In this document: piece after piece, positions 14,272 to 64,000 of the stretch
Layout: each line of letters opens with the position of its first letter
Position numbering within the stretch: position 1 is the first letter of the stretch
From: Streptomyces mayonensis
GTDB taxonomy: Bacteria > Actinomycetota > Actinomycetes > Streptomycetales > Streptomycetaceae
DNA: 64,000 nt
Direction of reading: 5' to 3'
NCBI RefSeq assembly: GCF_018982965.1
Contig: NZ_JACBYP010000032.1
Span: 1-64,000 of the forward strand
Program-made: the position numbers and the translations under genes
The notes under the pieces: model-generated
Database searches by the model: none
What the model was told of the DNA's origin: nothing
Seen by the model: only the letters and a program-made list of their open reading frames with translations

Positions 14272-16290
14272 TTACCGGCCAACGGACGCGGCATCGCCCG
14301 AGTGGTCGTGCCGGTCCCTTTCCTGTCCCTGTGGTTCCGGATAGGTGAAAGTGCGACGGATGAAGTGGTTGGGCGCGACCAAGGTCTCCCGTACGACGCG
14401 CTCTTGATCGTCCAGGGTCAGCTCCAGCGCGAGCCGCTCGCCGGGGAAGCCCAGTGCGAGCACGGTGTTGCCCTCCGCATCGGTGAAGCGGGAGCTGAGC
14501 GGCGCCTGCCCTTTGGCATAGGGCTCGGAGTCGATGAACTGCTTCCCGGTGACCTCCAGCCTTGTCGGCGCGACCCGGGTGCGGTCGATGTCACTGGCCA
14601 CCAGCTCATGCAGGGTGAAAGCGTCGATCGCGCGCATCGCCTTCACCACGCGCTGGAGCAGCTTCGCGTCGGGGCGGACCGGCCACATCACCCGCAGCGT
14701 GTCCTGACCGCCGCCCCAGCCCTGCGCGCCGGCCTTCACAGTGAGCAGGTTCAGCCCCTTGCGCCAGGTCACCCGCGCGTAGAAGCAGCCCTCACCACAG
14801 CCGCGGATCGCCAGCGCCCGGGTACGGCCGCCCGGCGTGGTCAGGGTGAGTCCGGCCTCGTACGAAAGTCTCGCCTCGCCGCCGTTGTCGCTGAGGTCGG
14901 TGTCCGGGGCGGTCAGCCGCACGACGACCTGGCCGGAGGAGGCGGTGGCGGCGATGCCGATTTGGTCCGCCCGTCCACCCGCCGTGATCGCGTTTCCGCT
15001 CGGCGGCGGCGCGAAGGGCAGCGCGGCATTCACATTTCGGGGCGGCTGGGTCACGCTCAGCAGCGCGGTGACGCCGAGCACGGCCACCAACGCTGAGGCC
15101 TCGACCCGGGCCAGCAGGTGGGGCGCGCTGCCGGCCAGCCTGCGACGGGCGGCGAGGGCCATTCCACAGGCCGCCCCCACCAGCGACAGCTTGACGACGA
15201 GAACCTGTCCGAAGGAGGTGTCCCACAACTCGGACCAGGACAGCAGCAACAACCCGGACAGCGTCCCGGTGAGCAGCACGACGAGCACGAGGGCCAGGGC
15301 GAGGCGGGCGTAGTGGCGCAATACCGCGCGGGCGTTCGACGCCCACCGCCAGGCCCGTCCCAGGCGTAGCACATGGACGAGCGCGCCGATCCACACCGCC
15401 GCCGCCAGCAGGTGGACCGTGGTAAGCACCGGCCCCCACACCGCCGACTCCGCCGCCGGATGGGCTCGCAGCCCCTCCGCGACTGCTGCCACGAACAGCG
15501 CCCCGGCAACAAGGCGCCGCTGCTTCAGCCGCAGCGCGACCATGGCCCCCAGCCAGGCCACCGTCCCGACCACCGCCAGGATCCCCGGCCGTCCGTCGAG
15601 CACTGCGGCCCCGGACGGCGAGGTGACCCCGTCAACCAGGCTGCCGCCTCCGGCGATCAGCACCGTCAGCCCGATCGAGGCCACCAGGCCGGCTGCCGTG
15701 CCGGGCAACACCCACGACCGGGGACGCCCGGCGCCCTCCGGGACGCGCTGCCGCGAAGCGAGCCGCTCCCCGACCAACCCGCCAAGAGACAAGGCAAAGG
15801 CCGCATACAGCACCCACCGCAGCGCCGCGGTTGCCGGAGCCCCGCTCACCTGCTGCCTGCCCGGCGCGCCGGAAGTGGACCCCAGCTCCGCCGTTACGGA
15901 GCCCACGGCGAAGCGGTACGTCCCGCTCATCACGTCGCCGTCCTCCGCGACCGCCTGCCAGGTGACCGTGTACACGCCCGGCCCCATCATCGAACGGACC
16001 GGTGCTGTCAGCTGCTTGCCACCCTCGCTGCGGGCGACCGCGCCGTGGGGCACGGACGCCCCGCCGGGTGCCGTGATGTGCAGCGCCTTCGCCCCGCTGG
16101 GCCGTACCGGCTCGTCGAAGACCAGGGCGATTTCCTTGGGTGCGGTCGGTACCGCGCCCTCGATCGCCGGGGAGGCGAACAGCAGAACCGCATGCGCTTG
16201 CGCCGGCGCTGGACCGGTCAGTAGCCCGGCCAGGGCCAACAGGACCGCGGCCGTCAGACGAGCGGCCCAGCGGGCCCACGCACCACACAT
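14272..16290 (-). CDS. CopC-CopD fusion, copper import/resistance protein
   Basis: A 672-residue protein. A signal peptide ends at AQA, followed at once by HAVLLFASP, the N-terminal copper-ligand His of the CopC fold; the CopC beta-sandwich runs to about residue 125 with the second His region in WQAVAEDGDVMSGTYRFAVG. Residues about 150-430 hold the eight or so helices of a CopD domain. The remaining ~240 residues form an extracytoplasmic beta-rich domain that ends with TFTYPEPQGQERDRHDHSG. CopC-CopD proteins handle copper at the outer face and may import it. The operator at 16299-16313 lies 9 bases upstream of the ATG, so initiation must be close to it. Confidence 0.9.
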   Translation of the reverse strand: MCGAWARWAARLTAAVLLALAGLLTGPAPAQAHAVLLFASPAIEGAVPTAPKEIALVFDEPVRPSGAKALHITAPGGASVPHGAVARSEGGKQLTAPVRSMMGPGVYTVTWQAVAEDGDVMSGTYRFAVGSVTAELGSTSGAPGRQQVSGAPATAALRWVLYAAFALSLGGLVGERLASRQRVPEGAGRPRSWVLPGTAAGLVASIGLTVLIAGGGSLVDGVTSPSGAAVLDGRPGILAVVGTVAWLGAMVALRLKQRRLVAGALFVAAVAEGLRAHPAAESAVWGPVLTTVHLLAAAVWIGALVHVLRLGRAWRWASNARAVLRHYARLALALVLVVLLTGTLSGLLLLSWSELWDTSFGQVLVVKLSLVGAACGMALAARRRLAGSAPHLLARVEASALVAVLGVTALLSVTQPPRNVNAALPFAPPPSGNAITAGGRADQIGIAATASSGQVVVRLTAPDTDLSDNGGEARLSYEAGLTLTTPGGRTRALAIRGCGEGCFYARVTWRKGLNLLTVKAGAQGWGGGQDTLRVMWPVRPDAKLLQRVVKAMRAIDAFTLHELVASDIDRTRVAPTRLEVTGKQFIDSEPYAKGQAPLSSRFTDAEGNTVLALGFPGERLALELTLDDQERVVRETLVAPNHFIRRTFTYPEPQGQERDRHDHSGDAASVGR

Positions 16291-27243: not shown

Positions 27244-29523
27244 CTACTTGAAGGACCGCAGGCGGAGGCTGTTGGTGACGACGAAGACCGAGGAGAAGGC
27301 CATCGCCGCTCCGGCGATCATCGGGTTGAGCATTCCGGCCGCCGCGAGCGGCAGCGCGGCGACGTTGTAGCCGAAGGCCCAGAAGAGGTTGCCCTTGATG
27401 GTCGCGAGGGTCTTCCGGGACAGCCGGATCGCGTCCGCGGCGACCCGCAGGTCCCCGCGCACCAACGTCAGGTCGCCGGCCTCGATCGCCGCGTCCGTGC
27501 CGGTGCCCATGGCCAGTCCCAGGTCGGCGGTGGCGAGCGCGGCGGCGTCGTTGACGCCGTCGCCGACCATGGCCACCGTTCGGCCCTCTGACTGCAACCG
27601 CTTGACCACGTCCACCTTGTCCTGGGGGAGGACCTCAGCGATCACTTCGTCGATTCCGACTGCCCGCGCCACCGACTCGGCGACGCGCTGATTGTCTCCG
27701 GTCAGCAATACCGGCTTCAGCCCCAGCCGCCGCAACTCGGCGATTGCTTCGGCGCTGGTCTCCTTGACCGCGTCGGCGACCGTGACAACACCGCGGGCCT
27801 CGCCGTCCCAGGCGACAGCAACCGCAGTGCGCCCCTCGGCCTCCGCAGCCACTTTGGCCTCGGCCAGTTCACGGGGCAGCCCGATAGCCCACTCGGTGAG
27901 GAGTTTCTCGCGGCCGACCAGCACCGCGTGCCCGTCGACCACGCCTTGCACACCGAGGCCGGCGACATTTTCGAAGTTCTCCGGTACGGGCAGGCTGCCC
28001 ACCTGTTCGATCGCTCCTACGGCGATTGCCTGGGCGATCGGGTGCTCCGAGGCGTGCTCCAAGGCGCCGACGAGTCGCAGAAGTTCTGCCTCTTGGACGC
28101 CCTCGGCGACATAGACATCCTGGAGGCTCATGCGGCCGGTGGTCACCGTGCCGGTCTTGTCGAGGACGACGGTGTCGACACGGCGGGTGGATTCCAGGAC
28201 TTCGGGGCCCTTGATGAGGATGCCGAGCTGGGCGCCGCGCCCGGTGCCGACCATCAGCGCGGTCGGTGTGGCGAGCCCCAGTGCACAGGGGCAGGCGATG
28301 ATCAGAACTGCGACGGCCGCGGTGAACGCCGCAGCCGGGTCCCCGGTCATGAACAGCCAGGTCAGGAGCGTGCCCAGTGCGACAAGGATGACTGCGGGGA
28401 CGAACACGGCGGAGATGCGGTCGGCCAGGCGCTGAACCGCCGCCTTGCCGTTCTGCGCGTCCTCGACCAACCTCGCCATCCGCGCGAGCTGGGTGTCCGC
28501 ACCGATTCGCGTAGCCTCGACGACCAGCCGTCCACCGGCGTTCACGGTCGCTCCGGTGACGGCATCCCCAACGGTCACGTCCGTCGGCACCGACTCGCCG
28601 GTCAGCATGGAGGCGTCGACGGCCGAGCTGCCCTCGACGACGGTGCCGTCGGTGGCGACCTTCTCCCCGGGCCGTACGACGAACCGGTCGCCAACCGCCA
28701 ACTGGGATACCGGAATCCGTACTTCCGTACCGGAGCGCAGTACGGCGACGTCCTTGGCACCCAGCTCCAGCAGGCTTCGCAGAGCCGCGCCCGCCTTGCG
28801 CTTCGACTTCGCCTCCAGGTAGCGCCCGGCGAGGATGAGTGCGGTCACGCCGGCCGCGGCCTCCAGGTAGATGGAGGAGGAGCCGTCCGAGCGGGAGATG
28901 GTGAACTCGAATCCGTGCCGCATGCCCGGCATCCCGGCGTGCCCGAAGAACAGCGCCCACAATGACCAGCCCAGCGCGGCGAGCGTACCTATGGACACCA
29001 GCGTGTCCATGGTCGCGGCACCGTGTCGGGCGTTGGTGAAGGCGGCCTTGTGGAAGGGGAACGCACCCCAGACCACGACGGGGGCCGCCAGCGTCAGCGA
29101 CAACCACTGCCAGTTGTCGAACTGCAAAGCTGGGACCATCGCCATCAGAACGACGGGCACTGAGAGTGCGAGCGACACGAACAGGCGCTGACGCAGTGAG
29201 AGCAACTCACCGTCCGCCGTCACCTGGACGGTCTCGGACCCACTCTCGGAAGGCGAAGCGGGAGGGGGTGGCTCCTCGGCCGTGTACCCGGTCTTCTCGA
29301 CGGTGGCGATGAGGTCGGCAACCTGGATCTCTCCGCCGTACGCGACCTTCGCCTTCTCGGTGGCGAAGTTGACCGTCGCGGTGACGCCGTCCATGCGGTT
29401 GAGCTTCTTCTCGATGCGGGCCGCGCACGAGGCGCAGGTCATGCCGCCGATGGAAAGCTCGACCTCCGCGCTGGGCGGCGGCGCCGTCGCGGAAGTGGTC
29501 TTCTCCGGAGCCGTGCTGCTCAT
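27244..29523 (-). CDS. copA: copper-translocating P1B-type ATPase
   Basis: A 759-residue copper exporter. One N-terminal heavy-metal domain with GMTCASC near residues 26-32 is followed by eight helices. The transport site is [13 protein letters not shown], the phosphorylation site DKTGTVTTG, the TGES loop MLTGESVP, the HP motif SEHPIAQ, and the hinge MVGDGVNDA. The C-terminal helix pair has [12 protein letters not shown] and [13 protein letters not shown], the Asn/Met/Ser pattern of CopA-type copper(I) pumps. I chose the ATG at 29523, with GGAG at 8 bases; a GTG 9 bases earlier is possible. Downstream of copZ in the same transcript, 112 bp apart. Confidence 0.97.
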
Positions 29524-29635
29524 GGACGTCACTCCTGGGAACTGCCGGGGCGTACCGCGTCCGTGTGAGCGGAGCGGTACTTCCCGACGCGGAAGGGGAA
29601 TGCGGGTATTGCCGGCGCGGGGCCCGGGACGGGCG

Positions 29636-39937: not shown

Positions 39938-41569
39938 ATGAACAGCATCAACCGTCGCTCTGTCCTGCTGGCCGGGCTCGGCGTGGCCGGTGCCGGTGCG
40001 CTCGCCGCGTGCAGCAACGGGTCCGGCGGTTCCCCCGCTCTGGTCAGCCCCTCGGGCTCAGCCGTGGTCGCGGCAGAGAAGAAGCGCCGCGGCACCGGCC
40101 GGGTGCACAACGTCAACCTGACGGCCGCCCCCACCACGGTCGATCTCGGCGGCGGGACCAGGGCCAAGACCTGGGCTTTCAGCGGTCAGACGCCCGGCAA
40201 GGAGCTCCGCCTCTCCGTGGGCGACACGCTCGCCGCCGAGCTGTCCAACCAGCTGCCGGACAGGACCGCCACGTCCATCCACTGGCACGGTCTCGCGTTG
40301 CGCAACGACATGGACGGCGTGCCTCCGGTCACGCAGACCGCCGTACGCGCCGGCTCCAACTTCACCTACCGGTTCATCACCGACCTCCCCGGCACGTACT
40401 TCTTCCACCCCCACGTCGGCGTCCAGCTCGACCGCGGCCTGTACGCCCCGCTGATCGTCGAGGATCCCAAGGAGCCGCTCTCGTACGACGATGAGTGGGT
40501 CCTCGTCCTCGACGACTGGCTGGACGGTGTGACAGGCACACCCGATGAGGCCTTCGCCGAGCTCAAGCAGGGGATGGGTGGGATGCACATGGGCGGGGGT
40601 TCCGGCGAGTCGTCGTCCAGCTCCTCCTCAGGCGGGCACGACATGAGCGACATGGACGGGATGGACATGAGCGGAGGGAGCATGGACGGGGCGAGTCCGT
40701 CCCCCTCCGCCTCCTCCGGCGGCATGTCGATGAAGTTCATGTTCATGGGCGCCGAGAGTGAGCTGCTCGGCGGCGACGCGGGCGACGTCAAGTACCCGCA
40801 CCACCTGATCAACGGACGCGTACCGACGGACCCCGACGTCTACACCGGCAAGCCCGGCAAGCGTGTTCGTCTCCGCATCATCAACGCGGGCGGCGACACG
40901 GCGTACCGGGTAGCGCTCGGTGGCCACAGGATGACCATCACCCACACCGACGGTTTCCCGGTCCAGCACCAGGAGGTCGATGCCCTGCTGCTCGGTATGG
41001 GCGAGCGCTACGACGTCCTGGTGACTCTCGCCGACGGCACGTTTCCACTCGTCGCGCTCGCCGAGGGCAAGGACGCGAGCGGGATGGCGGTGATCCGCAC
41101 GGGCTCCGGCGGAATTCCGAAGCCCACGGACCGCCCGAAGGAGCTGAACGGCATGATCATGACCGCCGCACAGCTGAAGGCGGCGGACGACGTCCGGCTG
41201 GAGACGAAGAAGGCCGACCGCGTCCACCGCGTCGAACTGACCGGTGGCATGGACAAGTACGACTGGGGCATCAACGGCAAGCGCTTCGACATGAAGAACC
41301 CTGCCTCGAGTCCTCTGCGCGTCAGGAAGGGGGAGCGGGTCCGCCTCGACTTCGTCAACAGCACCGACATGTGGCACCCCCTGCACCTGCACGGCCACAC
41401 CTACCAACTCGGTACCGGCGGCCCGCGCAAGGACACCACGATCGTGCTGCCGAAGAAGACCGTGTCCGTCTTCTTCGACGCCGACAATCCCGGGCAGTGG
41501 ATGCTGCACTGCCACAACGCCTACCACGGTGAGGCCGGGATGATGGCGCTGGTGGCCTACGAGGCGTGA
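39938..41569 (+). CDS. multicopper oxidase, Tat-exported
   Basis: A 543-residue oxidase. The N-terminus NRRSVLLAG is a twin-arginine signal, ending in ALAAC, a lipobox, so it should be anchored outside as a folded lipoprotein. All copper sites are present: IHWHGLALR, FFHPHVGVQ, MWHPLHLHGHTY and MLHCHNAYHGEAG. A Met/His/Ser-rich insertion of about 60 residues lies between domain 1 and domain 2 (GGMHMGGG through SMKFMFMGAE), as in CueO-like cuprous oxidases. It detoxifies copper(I) outside the cell. It follows the small DUF6153-like gene and ends at a clear hairpin. Confidence 0.96.
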   Translation: MNSINRRSVLLAGLGVAGAGALAACSNGSGGSPALVSPSGSAVVAAEKKRRGTGRVHNVNLTAAPTTVDLGGGTRAKTWAFSGQTPGKELRLSVGDTLAAELSNQLPDRTATSIHWHGLALRNDMDGVPPVTQTAVRAGSNFTYRFITDLPGTYFFHPHVGVQLDRGLYAPLIVEDPKEPLSYDDEWVLVLDDWLDGVTGTPDEAFAELKQGMGGMHMGGGSGESSSSSSSGGHDMSDMDGMDMSGGSMDGASPSPSASSGGMSMKFMFMGAESELLGGDAGDVKYPHHLINGRVPTDPDVYTGKPGKRVRLRIINAGGDTAYRVALGGHRMTITHTDGFPVQHQEVDALLLGMGERYDVLVTLADGTFPLVALAEGKDASGMAVIRTGSGGIPKPTDRPKELNGMIMTAAQLKAADDVRLETKKADRVHRVELTGGMDKYDWGINGKRFDMKNPASSPLRVRKGERVRLDFVNSTDMWHPLHLHGHTYQLGTGGPRKDTTIVLPKKTVSVFFDADNPGQWMLHCHNAYHGEAGMMALVAYEA

Positions 41570-58813: not shown

Positions 58814-58882
58814 TAAGCTCTGCGCTCGCGGTCCGGGGCCACCGGATGGCTTGGCTTGCTTTCTCAGGAACAAGGATCGTCC

Positions 58883-60028
58883 ATGGTCTCCGGCGCTTCA
58901 CCGACAGCCACCACCCCGCGATCGCGCGTGGGCCTGCGCGCAGCGTTTAGGCCGACGGAGTGGCGGTCCATCGGAGGCATGACCGCCTTCGTCCTGCTGC
59001 TGCACGTCGTGGGGTGGGGCGTGCTCATTTTCGCCGTGGCACCCCACGAATACCAGCTCGGCAGTGACGGCGTCCTCGGCGTCAATGTGGGCCTGACGGC
59101 ATATCTGCTGGGGGTGCGGCACGCGTTCGATGCGGATCACATTGCTTCGATCGACAACACCACCCGCAAGCTCGTCGGCGAGGGCAAGCCGTCTGTGAGT
59201 GCCGGTTTCTGGTTCTCCCTCGGACACTCCTCGGTGGTGTTCGTCGCAAGCCTGCTGCTGGCCATCGGTATCCGCTCGGTGGCCGGCGTCGTCCAGAATG
59301 AGGACTCGCACGCGGCACAGACGCTCGGCCTCGTCGGCACGATCGTCGCCGGAGCCTTCCTCGTACTCATCGGTCTCGTCAACCTCGTCTCGGCCATCGG
59401 CATCGCGAAGGTCTTCCGCCGCATGCGCGGTGGTGAGTACGACGAGGCGGAGCTGGAGCGGCAGCTCGACAGCCGAGGCTTTCTGGCCCGGCTCCTGGGA
59501 CGCGTAATGAGGCGCGTCAGCAAAGCCTGGCACCTCTATCCGGTCGGCCTCCTTATGGGCCTCGGCTTCGACACCGCGACCCAAGTCGCCCTACTCGTTC
59601 TCGCGGCAGGCTCGGCGGCGTACGTCTTGCCCTGGTATGCCATTCTCGTCCTGCCGGTCTTGTTCGCCGCCGGGATGAGTCTGTTCGACACCGCCGATGG
59701 TGTCTTCATGTCACGGGCCTACACCTGGGCGTTCCTGAAGCCTGTTCGCAAGGTCTTCTACAACCTGACCGTGACCGTGCTGTCCGTCACCGTCGCCCTT
59801 GTCATCGGCATCCTGGTGCTCGTCGGTCTGCTCGTCGAGAGGCTCGGCATGAAGTCCGGACCTTTGGTCTGGATCGCCTCGTTGAACCTGGAGTACGTGG
59901 GCTTCGGCATCGTCGGACTCTTCCTGCTGACTTGGGTGATCGCATTCGGTGTCTGGCGGATCGGCCGTATCGAGGAGCGATGGTCCGGCGACGCGCGACC
60001 AGTCAGCCCCATGCCTCCCGCAGAGTAG
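58883..60028 (+). CDS. NiCoT family nickel/cobalt permease
   Basis: A 381-residue permease with eight helices. The signature RHAFDADHIASIDN in helix 2, FSLGHSSVVF in helix 3, and LGFDTATQVALL and FAAGMSLFDTADGVFM further on are the four conserved segments of NiCoT transporters. A charged cytoplasmic loop (RRMRGGEYDEAELERQLDSR) follows helix 4. Nickel/cobalt preference cannot be told, but the Nur box argues for nickel. The ATG at 58883 follows AAGGAT. Nickel demand would fit urease, superoxide dismutase or hydrogenase, none of which is encoded here. Confidence 0.95.
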   Translation: MVSGASPTATTPRSRVGLRAAFRPTEWRSIGGMTAFVLLLHVVGWGVLIFAVAPHEYQLGSDGVLGVNVGLTAYLLGVRHAFDADHIASIDNTTRKLVGEGKPSVSAGFWFSLGHSSVVFVASLLLAIGIRSVAGVVQNEDSHAAQTLGLVGTIVAGAFLVLIGLVNLVSAIGIAKVFRRMRGGEYDEAELERQLDSRGFLARLLGRVMRRVSKAWHLYPVGLLMGLGFDTATQVALLVLAAGSAAYVLPWYAILVLPVLFAAGMSLFDTADGVFMSRAYTWAFLKPVRKVFYNLTVTVLSVTVALVIGILVLVGLLVERLGMKSGPLVWIASLNLEYVGFGIVGLFLLTWVIAFGVWRIGRIEERWSGDARPVSPMPPAE

Positions 60029-60134
60029 GGCGGCGCCGGGCTGAGTGCGGTCGCACTGGGAGCCGAGCCTCTGCAGGTTCGTCGACGGGCTTCGGTGCCC
60101 CGCCCAGGTCTCAGCGCGCCATTACACTTGCTTG

Positions 60135-60815
60135 GTGCGCATACCACCGCTTGCCCGTCTGGCCTTCCTCATCGTGCTGCTGGCGGTCGCGGCAAGCTCC
60201 CTGCTCCTGTGGAGTCCCCGTCGACTCCTGTCTCAGGGGTTCTCCTCCAGCCCTTTCGAGGTGTGGGCCGCACCCGCTTTCGTCCTCGTTTTCGCCCTCG
60301 CCACGCTTGCCTTCTTTCCGAAGCCCCTGCTCAACGCGGCCGCCGGAGTTCTGTTCGGCGCCGAGGGCCTGGCGCTGGCTGTCGCCGGGACCACACTGGG
60401 TGCAGTGCTGGCTTTCCTCCTCGGGCGAAGCCTCGGACGGGAGGCGATCCGGCCACTCCTGAGGAAGAAGGCCCTTGCAGCCCTGGATCGCCGTCTTACC
60501 GATCAGGGCTTCCGAAGCATGTTGCTGCTCCGCATCGTCCCCGGCATTCCTTTCCAGATGGTGAACTTCGCAGCGGCCTTCTCTGGTATCCGGCTCTGGC
60601 CGTTCGCCGCCGCGACGGCCGTCGGCGTGCTGCCCGGCACCGCCGCGTACGTGGTCGCTGGCGCCTCGGCCTCTGAGCCCACCTCGCCCGCCTTTCTGAT
60701 CTCGACCACGGTCATGATCGCCATGGTGGTGATCACCCTCGTCTCGCTGCGCGGAAACCGACGCGCGAAGGGCGGGCAGGTGTCCGTGCATCCGCCGGCA
60801 CGGCAGACACACTGA
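60135..60815 (+). CDS. VTT-domain (TVP38/TMEM64-like) membrane protein
   Basis: A 226-residue membrane protein with the VTT/DedA-like core: FFPKPLLNAAAGVLFGAEG followed by LAFLLGRSLGREAIR, then RIVPGIPFQMVNFAAAFSGI and a last helix pair. Related proteins are lipid scramblases in eukaryotes, and transport undecaprenyl phosphate in DedA and DUF368-like bacteria. The GTG at 60135 is 6 bases after TACACT, a good -10, so it is probably leaderless. It has no obvious operon partner. Confidence 0.88.
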   Translation: MRIPPLARLAFLIVLLAVAASSLLLWSPRRLLSQGFSSSPFEVWAAPAFVLVFALATLAFFPKPLLNAAAGVLFGAEGLALAVAGTTLGAVLAFLLGRSLGREAIRPLLRKKALAALDRRLTDQGFRSMLLLRIVPGIPFQMVNFAAAFSGIRLWPFAAATAVGVLPGTAAYVVAGASASEPTSPAFLISTTVMIAMVVITLVSLRGNRRAKGGQVSVHPPARQTH

Positions 60816-61136: not shown

Positions 61137-61487
61137 GTGAGCGGCTTTACGGCTGCACTGGCCCTGCTTGGCGTGGCACTGCTCGCCGTGGCGGGTCTTT
61201 ACGGGGCCGCCTGGGCGCTGCGGATCTCAGCGGCACCGCTGTCCGTGCAGCCGTTCGGGTCAGGTCTGGATCCCTCCGAACATGCGGTCAGCCGTTTCCA
61301 TGTGCGCTGGTACACGGTGACGATGCTCTTCCTCGCGTTCGACATGGAGATGGTCTTCATGTACCCGTGGACGCTTGTGATCTCCGCGATGGGGCCAAGC
61401 GCGGTGATCGAGATGTTCGTCTTCCTCGCGGTCCTTCTCGCCGGAGTGGTCTACGCATGGCGTGAGGGAGCGCTGCGATGGGCGTAA
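61137..61487 (+). CDS. nuoA: NADH-quinone oxidoreductase subunit A-like protein
   Basis: A 116-residue three-helix protein of the NuoA family. Conserved segments are QPFGSGLDPSEHAVSRFHVR in the loop and WYTVTMLFLAFDMEMVFMYP in helix 2, with the Asp and Glu of the family (FDMEM). The Cys of the usual YECG loop is replaced by Ser-Gly (FGSG). It starts a cluster of complex I membrane subunits that continues beyond the window. Start: the GTG at 61137; no strong ribosome site, so a nearby alternative cannot be excluded. Its 3' end overlaps the next gene by 10 bp. Confidence 0.9.
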   Translation: MSGFTAALALLGVALLAVAGLYGAAWALRISAAPLSVQPFGSGLDPSEHAVSRFHVRWYTVTMLFLAFDMEMVFMYPWTLVISAMGPSAVIEMFVFLAVLLAGVVYAWREGALRWA

Positions 61488-62938
61488 CAGCTGTCCTGGC
61501 ACGCGCAGCCGCGGGCCGGCCGCGTGTGCTGCTGACGGCTACGCCGGGCGGGACGCGGGTGCGGCTGGCCGTCGAGAAGGAGCTGCGGTCGCGGGACTGG
61601 CCGGCGGCAACGACCCCTGCCGAGGCCGACCTCATGCTGGTTGTGGGTCCCGACTGCCCGCGGCTACGTCCAGCAATGGACCGGCTGTGGCAGGACATGC
61701 CCCAGCCACGCGTGCGAATGCGGGTGACGACGGTCGGCGAGGTGGCTTCGGTTCTCGACGCCGGCCGGACCCGGCTGAGTGCACCGGACCACTCGGACAT
61801 CGGTCCGGACCGAACCGACGGGCACGACACATCTGGAGAGTCCGGCAGTGAGGGGCATATGCCGTCCGACCGGGAAGCGGGCAACAGGGATCGCAGCGGC
61901 GACGAGGACACGGGACGGCACCACGACGGTTCGCGGGGCGTCGACCGCGGCGGTGAGCACCAGGGACACCGCGGCGCCGACCACGGAGGTCATGACCCCG
62001 GCGCTGCCGGCCACGCCGGATCACACGGCGAAGCGGAGCACGAGTCTGACGGTCCTATGAAAGGGGACGGTCAGCAGAACCACGCGGGCCATGGCAGCGG
62101 CCACGGCGTTCATGGAGGCCACGGCGGTCACGGGCACGGGGACATGGAAATGCCCGGCGGACTGCCAATGGCCGAGCCGGGCGAAGACCGCGACGGTCTG
62201 ATGCTGGACCGCCTGCACGTGTCGCTGGGGCCGTTCCTGGCCGACTGGCCCACCGGACTGGTCATCCGTGTGGTGCTGCAGGGCGATGTCATTCAGCAGG
62301 CCGATCTCGATGCGCCGCCCTCCAGCGGGTCGGCCGACGCCTTCTGGGCGAGGCCCTGGCTGCGTGCCGCGTCGGGTGAGGTGGTGTACGCGGGGGAGGC
62401 CGCCCGGTGGCGAGCGGCTGCGCATCTGGACAGCCTGGGTCGGCTGTTGTCGGTGGTCGGCTGGCCCGCCCAGGCAGTGAAGGCGCGACGGCTCCGCGAC
62501 GACCTGCTGGACGAGGCGCAGACCAAGGAGGTACTGCCTCGTGTGGAGCGCCTTGCCCGACGCGTCGGAAGGTCTCGGACCTTGTACTGGTTGTCTCGTG
62601 GCATCGGCCCGGTGAGTACGGCCGATGCGCGGGCCGCCGGCGTCACCGGACCCGCCGCGCGCGCGGGCGGGGACGTGCCGGCCAGGTACCGGCAGTGGCT
62701 CACCGATGTCGTACGAGACGTACTGCGGTTGGACGACACAGCGCGGCTCGATCCAGCGGCTCAGGAGAGTCCGCGGGGCCGGTGGGACGCCGTGCGACCG
62801 CCCTCAGTAGACCTGGCGAGGCTGCTGCCCCGGCTGTTGGAAGGAGCCGAGCTGAGCGCGGCTCGCCTCATTGTCGCCAGCCTTGACCCGGACCCGGACG
62901 AACTGAGCCTCACCGAGCAGGAGCTCGCTCGTGGTTGA
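61478..62938 (+). CDS. degenerate NuoB-NuoD-like fusion with His-rich linker
   Basis: A 486-residue protein. Residues ~1-100 follow the NuoB fold (PAEADLMLVVGPDCPRLRPA, then MPQPRVRMRV), but the tandem Cys and the other two N2-cluster cysteines are missing. Residues ~105-235 are low-complexity His, Gly, Asp and Glu (HGSGHGVHGGHGGHGHGDME). From ~240 on it resembles the start of NuoD (LHVSLGPFLADWPTGLVIRV), where the quinone-site GPQHPSTHG is replaced. So it keeps the scaffold but not the chemistry. Co-translated with nuoA and nuoH. I know of no characterised member. Confidence 0.7.
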   Translation: MGVTAVLARAAAGRPRVLLTATPGGTRVRLAVEKELRSRDWPAATTPAEADLMLVVGPDCPRLRPAMDRLWQDMPQPRVRMRVTTVGEVASVLDAGRTRLSAPDHSDIGPDRTDGHDTSGESGSEGHMPSDREAGNRDRSGDEDTGRHHDGSRGVDRGGEHQGHRGADHGGHDPGAAGHAGSHGEAEHESDGPMKGDGQQNHAGHGSGHGVHGGHGGHGHGDMEMPGGLPMAEPGEDRDGLMLDRLHVSLGPFLADWPTGLVIRVVLQGDVIQQADLDAPPSSGSADAFWARPWLRAASGEVVYAGEAARWRAAAHLDSLGRLLSVVGWPAQAVKARRLRDDLLDEAQTKEVLPRVERLARRVGRSRTLYWLSRGIGPVSTADARAAGVTGPAARAGGDVPARYRQWLTDVVRDVLRLDDTARLDPAAQESPRGRWDAVRPPSVDLARLLPRLLEGAELSAARLIVASLDPDPDELSLTEQELARG

Positions 62939-63860
62939 GGCGGGAGAGTGGTGGATGCTGCTGGCCGCTCCGGCGGCGCTGCTCGGCTTCGCCTTGGTGG
63001 CCGTGGCCGGCAATGCGGCGCTGGACGCCCGAAGCGCGGGCCGGTCGGTCACTGCGACCGCTGTGGTGCGGCCATTTCTCGCCGTACCGCAGGCACTGGT
63101 GACACAGCAGCGTCGTATGCCCGCTCCGGACCGGTTGCTGTGGCGGGTCGGCGTCGTGGTGGTACCGGTGGCGGCCGTTCTTTCCACGCTGGTCATCCCG
63201 TTCGGGAACCACGTCGTCGCCGACCTCTCGGTGGGGGTGGTGTGGTTCAACGCGATGGAGGTGCTGACCTGGGCCGGGCTGTGGTTGGCCGGCTGGGGCC
63301 CGAACGCTGCGTTCTCCCTGGTCGGCGGCTACCGCTTCCTCGCCCAGGGCCTGGCGTACGAACTGCCCCTGATGTTCGCGCTGATCTCTGCTGCCACCGG
63401 GGCGCAGTCCCTGCGGGTCACGGACGTCGTCGGTGCCCAGCACGGGTTGTGGTACGCGGTGTGGATGCCATTCGCGTTCGTCGTCTACCTGGCCGGCGTG
63501 CTCGCGTTCAGCTTTCTGGGCCCGTTCGCCTACCCGGCCGGTCGTGACATCGCCGGTGGCGTGCTGGGGGAGACGTCCGGCGTGGACCGGCTGCTGCTGC
63601 AGGCCGGGCGGTGGCTGTGGCTGGCGGCGGGGGCGGCGATGGCGGTGCCGCTGTTCCTGGGAGGTGGTGCCGGACCGGGACTGCCGACCTGGGCGTGGTC
63701 ACTGATCAAGACATTGCTGGTGCTGGGGCTGCTGGTGTGGGTGCTGCGACGCATGCCGGTGATCCGTGCCGACCGGTACGTGGAGCTGGCCTGGGTGGTG
63801 CTGCTACCACTGTCGATTGTGCAAGCCCTGGTGCCGGCCCTGGTCAATCTCAACCTGTAG
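62931..63860 (+). CDS. nuoH: NADH-quinone oxidoreductase subunit H-like protein
   Basis: A 309-residue membrane protein with about eight helices in the NuoH family, which links the quinone site to the antiporter subunits. Recognisable are PFLAVPQALVTQQRRMPAPD (the family has a related quinone-site loop), the charged GGYRFLAQGLAYELPLMFAL, with the Glu used in proton transfer, and FLGPFAYPAGRDIAGGVLGE. The typical PFD..E..ELV signature is partly lost. The GTG at 62931 overlaps the upstream stop. It is followed directly by a NuoJ-like gene, with no nuoI between. Confidence 0.8.
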   Translation: MVEAGEWWMLLAAPAALLGFALVAVAGNAALDARSAGRSVTATAVVRPFLAVPQALVTQQRRMPAPDRLLWRVGVVVVPVAAVLSTLVIPFGNHVVADLSVGVVWFNAMEVLTWAGLWLAGWGPNAAFSLVGGYRFLAQGLAYELPLMFALISAATGAQSLRVTDVVGAQHGLWYAVWMPFAFVVYLAGVLAFSFLGPFAYPAGRDIAGGVLGETSGVDRLLLQAGRWLWLAAGAAMAVPLFLGGGAGPGLPTWAWSLIKTLLVLGLLVWVLRRMPVIRADRYVELAWVVLLPLSIVQALVPALVNLNL

Positions 63861-63872
63861 GGAAGGAGCGTC

Positions 63873-64000
63873 ATGGGCCTGACGAGCACGGTGCTGCTGG
63901 TGGTACTGGGCGTGCTCGCTCTCACCGGCGGCGTCCTGGTGTTCACGCTGAACTCCATGGCCCGGGTCACCTTCGCGCTACTGGGCTCCCTGGTGTGTGT
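63873..64000 (+). CDS. nuoJ: NADH-quinone oxidoreductase subunit J-like protein (partial)
   Basis: The first 42 codons of a gene cut by the window end. LTSTVLLVVLGVLALTGGVL then VFTLNSMARVTFALLGSLVC is the start of NuoJ, where helix 1 is followed by an R-x-x-x-A-L region. GGAAGGAGCG lies just before the ATG. The usual order in full operons is H, I, J; here J follows H after 12 bases, so the ferredoxin-like subunit I is not in its normal place. Confidence 0.7.
   Translation, partial: MGLTSTVLLVVLGVLALTGGVLVFTLNSMARVTFALLGSLVC

Follow-up and report, generated by a model that had tools for sequence, protein, structure and literature searches.

DAB and Ehr are reduced relatives of respiratory complex I that run on other inputs. 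In the passages of PMC7419157 drawn on here, MBH is another such relative, the cation site of the Mrp antiporters is held by homologues of NuoJ and NuoK (MrpA E706 is essential, and P721 influences the affinity for Na+), and the Na+ exit path of Mrp corresponds in position to the E-channel of complex I. The copper exporter CusA, in the part of PMC7558416 used, relies on protons to pass copper along a ladder of methionines. One genus is already known to have complex-I-like genes within a copper operon: the portions of the 2021 paper of Eddie et al. (PMC8233155) consulted place nuoADHJKL-type genes of Marinobacter atlanticus inside, and co-regulated with, a copper-resistance cluster, describe that cluster as lacking nuoMN and the NuoL extension, and propose that energy comes from copper redox reactions. 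Here we analyse an eight-gene operon of Streptomyces mayonensis, in the order nuoA–fusion–H–J–K–L–M–N, that starts near the 3' edge of a 64,000-nucleotide stretch (hereafter the window; the first 64,000 of the 74,799 bases of contig NZ_JACBYP010000032.1). It has lost the redox sites of complex I, has kept most of its pump residues and has gained methionines in three membrane subunits; we suggest that it may act as a proton-driven Cu(I) exporter.

Four genes of the operon begin within the window:

61137..61487, + strand: nuoA-like gene (Pfam Oxidored_q4, 1.3e-27); acids D69/E71 kept, H55, M72 and M75 added
61478..62938, + strand: remnant NuoB/NuoD fusion with a His-rich linker, 486 amino acids (recognised by profiles and relatives)
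62931..63860, + strand: nuoH-like gene (Pfam NADHdh, 1.9e-41); most quinone-loop acids lost, E228 kept
63873..64000, + strand: 5' part of a nuoJ-like gene that ends at contig position 64442; methionine-rich third helix

The order of these four genes is as an earlier note on this DNA had given it. That note had also advised reading beyond position 64000 for nuoK, L, M and N, and all four follow nuoJ in order: the remainder of nuoJ (L004:3874-4443) is succeeded by nuoK, nuoL, nuoM and nuoN up to contig position ~69541. Because the eight genes all overlap or abut, they read as a single operon, and none of the intact nuoB, nuoC, nuoD or nuoI genes that the note had named as evidence against its reading occurs later in it. 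Family searches of the whole genome found NuoB, NuoD and NuoF on other contigs only, none with the operon; NuoC, E, G and I have no room between the eight genes, and no family-model search for these four was made. The NADH and quinone modules that would make this complex I (NuoB, C, D, E, F, G, I) do not accompany it. Elsewhere in the window's genome, apart from the main nuo operon, lie a second long NuoD-like frame (1103 amino acids; G000:C10:11482-12231) and a second NuoB-like gene (G000:C119:5000-5332).

The complete eight-gene order was found in 56 loci of Actinobacteria and Proteobacteria, 54 of them distinct (L004/L049 and L048/L132 are each the same locus twice), while incomplete loci stop at contig ends or are decayed. 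This fixed gene order, together with 54 non-redundant fusions (matched part of at least 250 amino acids; identical or contained sequences dropped), rules out chance or artefact. Streptomyces coelicoflavus NBRC 15399 has a fusion 100% identical to that of the window; 6/61 genomes of the genus carry the family, the window's genome counted, and a scan of genome contigs gave four Streptomyces loci. From 396 Actinomycetota genomes, the loci of 33 besides the window's genome were fetched, and the fusion follows nuoA in 33/33 (two of these, G311 and G228, sit on short contigs); many other Actinomycetota matches, not individually checked, cover residues ~41-84 only, as an ordinary NuoB would. Using tblastn, the window fusion matched 20 plasmid records and a Halomonas NuoJ 31. 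The NuoJ-matched plasmids, not each opened, include ones from Mycobacterium, Rhodococcus, Gordonia, Pseudonocardia, Arthrobacter, Curtobacterium and Rubrobacter among actinobacteria and from Halomonas, Roseivivax, Sulfitobacter, Paracoccus and Thioclava among proteobacteria.

Trees of NuoM (45 family and 13 canonical rows) and NuoH (52 and 17) place the family on one side of one fully supported branch. NuoL, NuoM and NuoN each group with their own complex-I namesake; the ancestor of the family was thus a full complex-I-type arm and not Mrp.

Some plasmids stood out for other reasons. Insertion elements break the fusion gene on two of them, one of the ISL3 family in Martelella (L053 13001-15203) and one of the IS3 family in Pseudarthrobacter (L056 12001-13821). 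In Roseivivax marinus TCYB24 the operon is present twice, in near-identical form, on separate plasmids (L021, L058). A plasmid labelled Dysgonomonadaceae (CP070277.1) has the same size (166,348) and an equal match as the Martelella lutilitoris plasmid NZ_CP066787.1, and is probably a misassigned contaminant.

The fusion protein that stands in for the missing redox subunits is built as follows:

61523..61777, + strand: NuoB-like part (~residues 16-100), the four N2 positions without Cys
61778..62152, + strand: His/Gly/Asp/Glu-rich linker (~residues 101-225), 19 His
62144..62209, + strand: motif M-x-M-P-x-G ... D-x-D-G-L opening the NuoD part (residues 223-244)
62195..62902, + strand: NuoD-like part (~residues 240-475), HPxxHG lost

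The window's fusion is matched below threshold by family models: Pfam gives NuoD only (Complex1_49kDa, E 0.0064, residues 350-398) and NCBIfam gives NuoB (nuoB_fam, E 0.0029, residues 44-81). Homology of both parts, which the earlier note had asserted, is secured by relatives, an 11-row profile of fusions matching Nqo6/NuoB structures at 8.5e-9 and Rubrobacter-type fusions matching the NuoD family at 3.4e-10 to 1.7e-18. The loss of the N2-cluster cysteines and of the quinone-site HPSTHG motif, read by the note from this one gene, extends to the entire family. Cysteine occurs at the columns of E. coli NuoB C63, C64, C129 and C158 in 0/54 fusions, three of the four columns are gaps in all 54, and the NuoB part of the 54 contains no CC pair; the genome's own canonical NuoB keeps all four cysteines. 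None of the 54 fusions has HPxxHG at the GP site, the GPxHPxxHG of complex I being replaced by GP...P.G without histidines, and the four matches to the pattern (in three proteins) all fall inside the His-rich linker. D239, L241, G251 and P252 are present in 54/54. The linker of the window, which had been put at ~130 residues, measures ~136 with its 19 His, and the segment between the two parts is variable across the family.

Residues of the membrane subunits were numbered with E. coli complex I as a ruler. Rows had to reach 80 (NuoA), 220 (NuoH), 120 (NuoJ), 80 (NuoK), 400 (NuoL), 350 (NuoM) or 330 (NuoN) amino acids, identical or contained rows were dropped, and the canonical NuoN set consists of two rows. 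The channel residues are kept in NuoL (E144 52/52, K229 51/52, K342 51/52, K399 52/52), NuoM (E/D144 45/45, K234 and K265 45/45, E407 44/45) and NuoK (E36 51/51, E/D72 51/51). NuoN keeps K247 and K395 in all or all but one row, and K217 in 39/47. On the quinone side, NuoH E216 and E218 are found in 0/52 family rows, and the other acids vary (E36 19/52, with D in 28; D63 2/52; E157 25/52; D213 30/52). The NuoH of the window does keep part of its quinone signature, as had been noted: E157, E220 (as D) and E228 are retained, and E36, D63, D213, E216 and E218 are not. The loop Cys of complex I NuoA are absent in the 11 family rows compared. These kept pump residues and lost redox sites support the earlier suggestion of a proton- or cation-moving complex without NADH/quinone chemistry.

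Methionine is a known ligand of Cu(I) and Ag(I). When columns conserved in at least 90% of the family and rare in canonical rows were taken as family-specific, methionine accounted for 17/40 of them in NuoA, NuoJ and NuoK and for 0/49 in NuoH, NuoL, NuoM and NuoN (Fisher 8.3e-8, computed on 17/39 versus 0/49). In NuoJ, M62, M63, E66, M67, M70, M74, M78, P81, M87, M89 and H91 are found in 54/54 family and 0/16 canonical rows, and Y59 is replaced by M in 54/54. Seven of the methionines (M62, M63, M67, M70, M74, M78 and M79) lie on the third helix, with a new glutamate, E66, among them, and P81, M87, M89 and H91 follow. NuoA has H55, M72 and M75 in 55/55 family and 0/14 canonical rows, M72 adjoining the conserved E71. 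NuoK has M29, M31, M70 and M74 in 46-51 of 51 rows, flanking E36 and E72. Four operons unused in site discovery (Thioclava, Paracoccus, Nitratireductor and Roseovarius) served as a hold-out: 14/14 NuoJ sites and 5/5 NuoA sites were the same in 4/4, and NuoK M29, M70 and M74 held. The NuoJ and NuoA methionines are equally invariant in loci without copper neighbours; the exception is NuoK M74, present in 13/17 loci without copper genes versus 33/34 elsewhere.

NuoJ E66 and P81, 54/54 by alignment, recall the MrpA pair E706/P721. Their exact E66-x14-P81 spacing is found in 43/54 family rows, 0/16 canonical rows and 6/6 MrpA-type frames (6 of 8 matches; the MbhD-family L103 and L107 were left out, L103 being without the pattern by eye). 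The NuoJ methionines are thus found at the place where a relative has its cation. A profile alignment puts E66 on the MrpA Glu, at a weak E of 0.0026, and family NuoJ is closer to complex-I NuoJ (1.9e-15) than to MrpA (0.0026).

Metal-binding segments recur in the linker of the fusion. The heavy-metal-binding domain (HMBD) PF19335 was found there in 5/6 Rubrobacter-type members (none in L042) of a first scan, which covered 10 proteins, 5 of them with PF19335. A second scan found it in 5/5 relatives, namely four alphaproteobacterial plasmids and R. tropicus (same record as L048). Fusions with the domain have 1–5 copies of it, with five at 1.3e-75 in Thioclava; the fusions of Roseivivax and Acuticoccus, also alphaproteobacteria, are without the motif. 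Two Rubrobacter-type linkers also match the CusB model (9.1e-6 and 0.21). The window's fusion has no PF19335 by Pfam and has the His-rich linker instead, and in other members too the linker is often rich in His. A linker poor in His is usually paired with a His-rich C-terminal tail on NuoJ: among 52 operons, with cut-offs of 5 and 3 His, the His-rich segment was in the linker only in 35, in the NuoJ tail only in 14, in both in 1 and in neither in 2. These states follow large clades and are not 52 independent events.

Copper genes were found in 38/56 family loci versus 1/20 random stretches of the same genomes and 0/20 canonical-nuo stretches, the last of which contain less non-nuo DNA. The set counted comprised metal ATPase, CsoR/CueR, HMA chaperone, multicopper oxidase, CopC/D, PcoB and DUF305, and the count excludes window/L004/L049 (one species), L022, L067, L068, L078 and the short L007-L017. 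As the copper reference proteins were drawn from plasmid loci, the subset of 35 loci from genome assemblies is the fairer test, and it gives 22/35, or 20/35 without counting DUF305 (Fisher p 1.1e-4 versus random). In most Rubrobacter-type loci an ATPase, CsoR and a chaperone lie just upstream of the operon on the same strand. No other shared theme emerged among the neighbours in copper-free loci (20 proteins from 9 of 18 loci). The window has a copper island at 12354-46600, with CopC-CopD, two DUF305, SCO1, a metal ATPase, an HMA chaperone, a multicopper oxidase and M56/BlaI-type genes, including:

14272..16290, - strand: CopC-CopD copper-resistance protein (Pfam CopC 1.8e-18, CopD 2.8e-9)
27244..29532, - strand: heavy-metal P-type ATPase (Pfam; tblastn, 69% identity to the ATPase beside the M. 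avium operon)
39938..41569, + strand: multicopper oxidase (Pfam, tblastn)

Other genes were seen next to particular operons. Directly upstream in the window, on the same strand, are a NicO-family nickel/cobalt permease and a VTT-domain protein (58856-60815). Pseudonocardia alni (L055) and P. autotrophica (L027) likewise have a NicO-type match close to the operon. On M. avium and M. intracellulare plasmids (L018 and L057, respectively), the operon and a metal ATPase lie near a nocobactin-type polyketide cluster; an ISMav6 copy sits between ATPase and operon in L018, and none is annotated there in L057. The ergothioneine genes egtB and egtD come directly after the operon in Halomonas KO116 (L020 21667-23939).

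We slightly favour the reading that the operon encodes a redox-dead membrane arm of complex I that exports Cu(I) driven by protons, that is, a Cu(I)/H+ antiporter. It would be an eight-subunit, redox-inactive descendant of that arm with a place in bacterial copper defence. NuoL, NuoM and NuoN would still carry protons, and the electron input via NuoB/C/D/I would have been replaced by a compact NuoB/NuoD scaffold with a metal-binding segment (His-rich, Met motif or HMBD). Cu(I), and probably Ag(I) too, would be collected at the fusion on the cytoplasmic side and passed through the membrane along the methionines and glutamates of NuoJ, NuoA and NuoK, where Mrp carries Na+, and proton return through L/M/N would drive the metal outward. 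From these sequence features we infer metal transport, its Cu(I) identity, direction, coupling and stoichiometry. The earlier note had offered metal binding or gas/bicarbonate uptake as the coupled input. The metal branch is favoured because the pump residues are kept, relatives carry HMBD in their linkers and the neighbourhoods contain copper genes; the gas/bicarbonate branch is not, nothing having been seen in its support (DabA was not searched by model). More tentatively, and at somewhat lower confidence, we suggest a new class of copper transporter, in which Cu(I) on a NuoJ/K/A Met/Glu path would replace quinone chemistry as the partner of the proton channels, and which would spread on plasmids as a copper-resistance module.

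Several observations weigh against Cu(I) export. A three-antiporter complex seems costly for a task already served by P-type ATPases. NuoN E133 is lost (L 42/47, V 3, F 1, G 1; V in 4/4 later-found operons), so coupling there cannot be that of either complex I or Mrp. At NuoK M31 the four hold-out operons have a residue other than Met, and the NuoJ helical-wheel test was weak (p 0.13 for the seven Met; p 0.013 for a chosen subset with E66). Structure predictions were poor, with a mean predicted local distance difference test score (pLDDT) of 38.9 for the fusion and 44.8 for NuoJ (four Streptomyces rows each). Nor do all fusions have a His-rich linker; many of the proteobacterial type contain 0-2 His there. 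By the references used, 18/56 loci are without a copper gene, some in ordinary chromosomal surroundings, and the copper island of the window is roughly 15-48 kb away from the operon. Lastly, NuoH keeps E220 (D/E) in 52/52 rows and E228 in 51/52, so a quinone-like role may persist.

The presence of NuoH with these two acids also speaks for a copper redox pump, in which Cu(I)/Cu(II)–quinone electron transfer at the NuoH site would drive proton pumping. His and Met bind both copper states, and energy from copper redox reactions is what Eddie et al., in the portions consulted (PMC8233155), proposed for the Marinobacter cluster. We consider this unlikely, as the family has neither N2 Cys nor HPxxHG, NuoH E216/E218 stand at 0/52, the NuoA loop Cys are missing from the rows compared, and the annotated plasmid operons contain just the eight genes. 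Somewhat less improbable, in our view, is an antiporter for Na+/K+, or for pH or membrane potential, that copper would only sense and switch when it damages complex I. The homology of J, K and L/M/N to Mrp (PMC7419157, in the passages drawn on), the E66-x14-P81 match to MrpA and the position of the metal domains on a cytoplasmic protein would all fit such gating. A Na+/K+ path, however, has no need of the soft-metal ligands (Met) that the membrane subunits gained, and no MrpB/E/F/G-like gene is among the eight, by annotation and without a model search.

The multicopper oxidase, SCO1 and cytochrome oxidase genes near some loci could instead suggest an importer or loader that supplies copper to cytoplasmic or periplasmic cuproenzymes. 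The neighbours are mainly efflux or detoxification genes (metal ATPase, CsoR/CueR, CopC/D, DUF305), the metal-binding part is on a cytoplasmic protein, as for an exporter, and three antiporters are not required to drive import down a gradient, which makes this reading improbable. A functionless, decaying relic of complex I is least credible of all. Single operons do decay: two are cut by insertion sequences (Martelella L053 and Pseudarthrobacter L056), and Rhodococcus pRB29 and Streptomyces NBC_00080 retain pieces only. Yet the pump and Met sites are near-invariant over 45-55 divergent operons, the eight genes are kept in order in 56 loci and the family forms one deep clade; we reject decay on this residue conservation.

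How quinone chemistry drives distant proton channels is a long-standing question in complex I. A natural version with the channels retained and metal ligands in place of the redox input would let the two be studied apart in a clean system, and would link complex I to the Mrp antiporters by experiment. If the new class of copper transporter suggested above is real, the coupling mechanism of complex I does not need electrons. The natural version would also be a mobile module for copper resistance, so far unrecognised, on plasmids of actinobacteria, environmental and clinical, and of proteobacteria from marine habitats; the annotation of most family genes at present is NADH-quinone oxidoreductase subunit. 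In the open-licence literature searched, we saw no description of the loss of the cluster and quinone sites, the Met gains, the metal domains or the spread of the family. Our guess, from the published description only (PMC8233155, in part), is that the Marinobacter genes belong to this same family.

Among known systems, complex I (NDH-1) shares the orthologues A, H, J, K, L, M and N, and its proton-channel residues are kept in L, M and K and partly in NuoN. Unlike complex I, the family operon is without the NADH (N) or quinone (Q) module, one fusion without cluster Cys or quinone motif replaces NuoB/C/D/I, NuoJ/K/A are rebuilt with Met, and NuoN E133 is gone. The operon also differs from DAB and Ehr, which the earlier note had named along with MRP, and from MBH in containing no further gene, DabA and hydrogenase partners not having been searched for by family model. 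CusA, an HME-RND copper/silver exporter, is proton-driven and has a methionine ladder (PMC7558416, in the part used); its fold is unrelated and the likeness is one of analogy only. Mrp resembles the family in combining antiporter subunits with small NuoJ/NuoK-type subunits and no redox module. The family differs from it in having NuoH, NuoA, a third antiporter subunit and a soluble NuoBD protein; MrpB, MrpE, MrpF and MrpG are not among its eight genes (no family-model search was made), and it presents Met instead of Na+ ligands.

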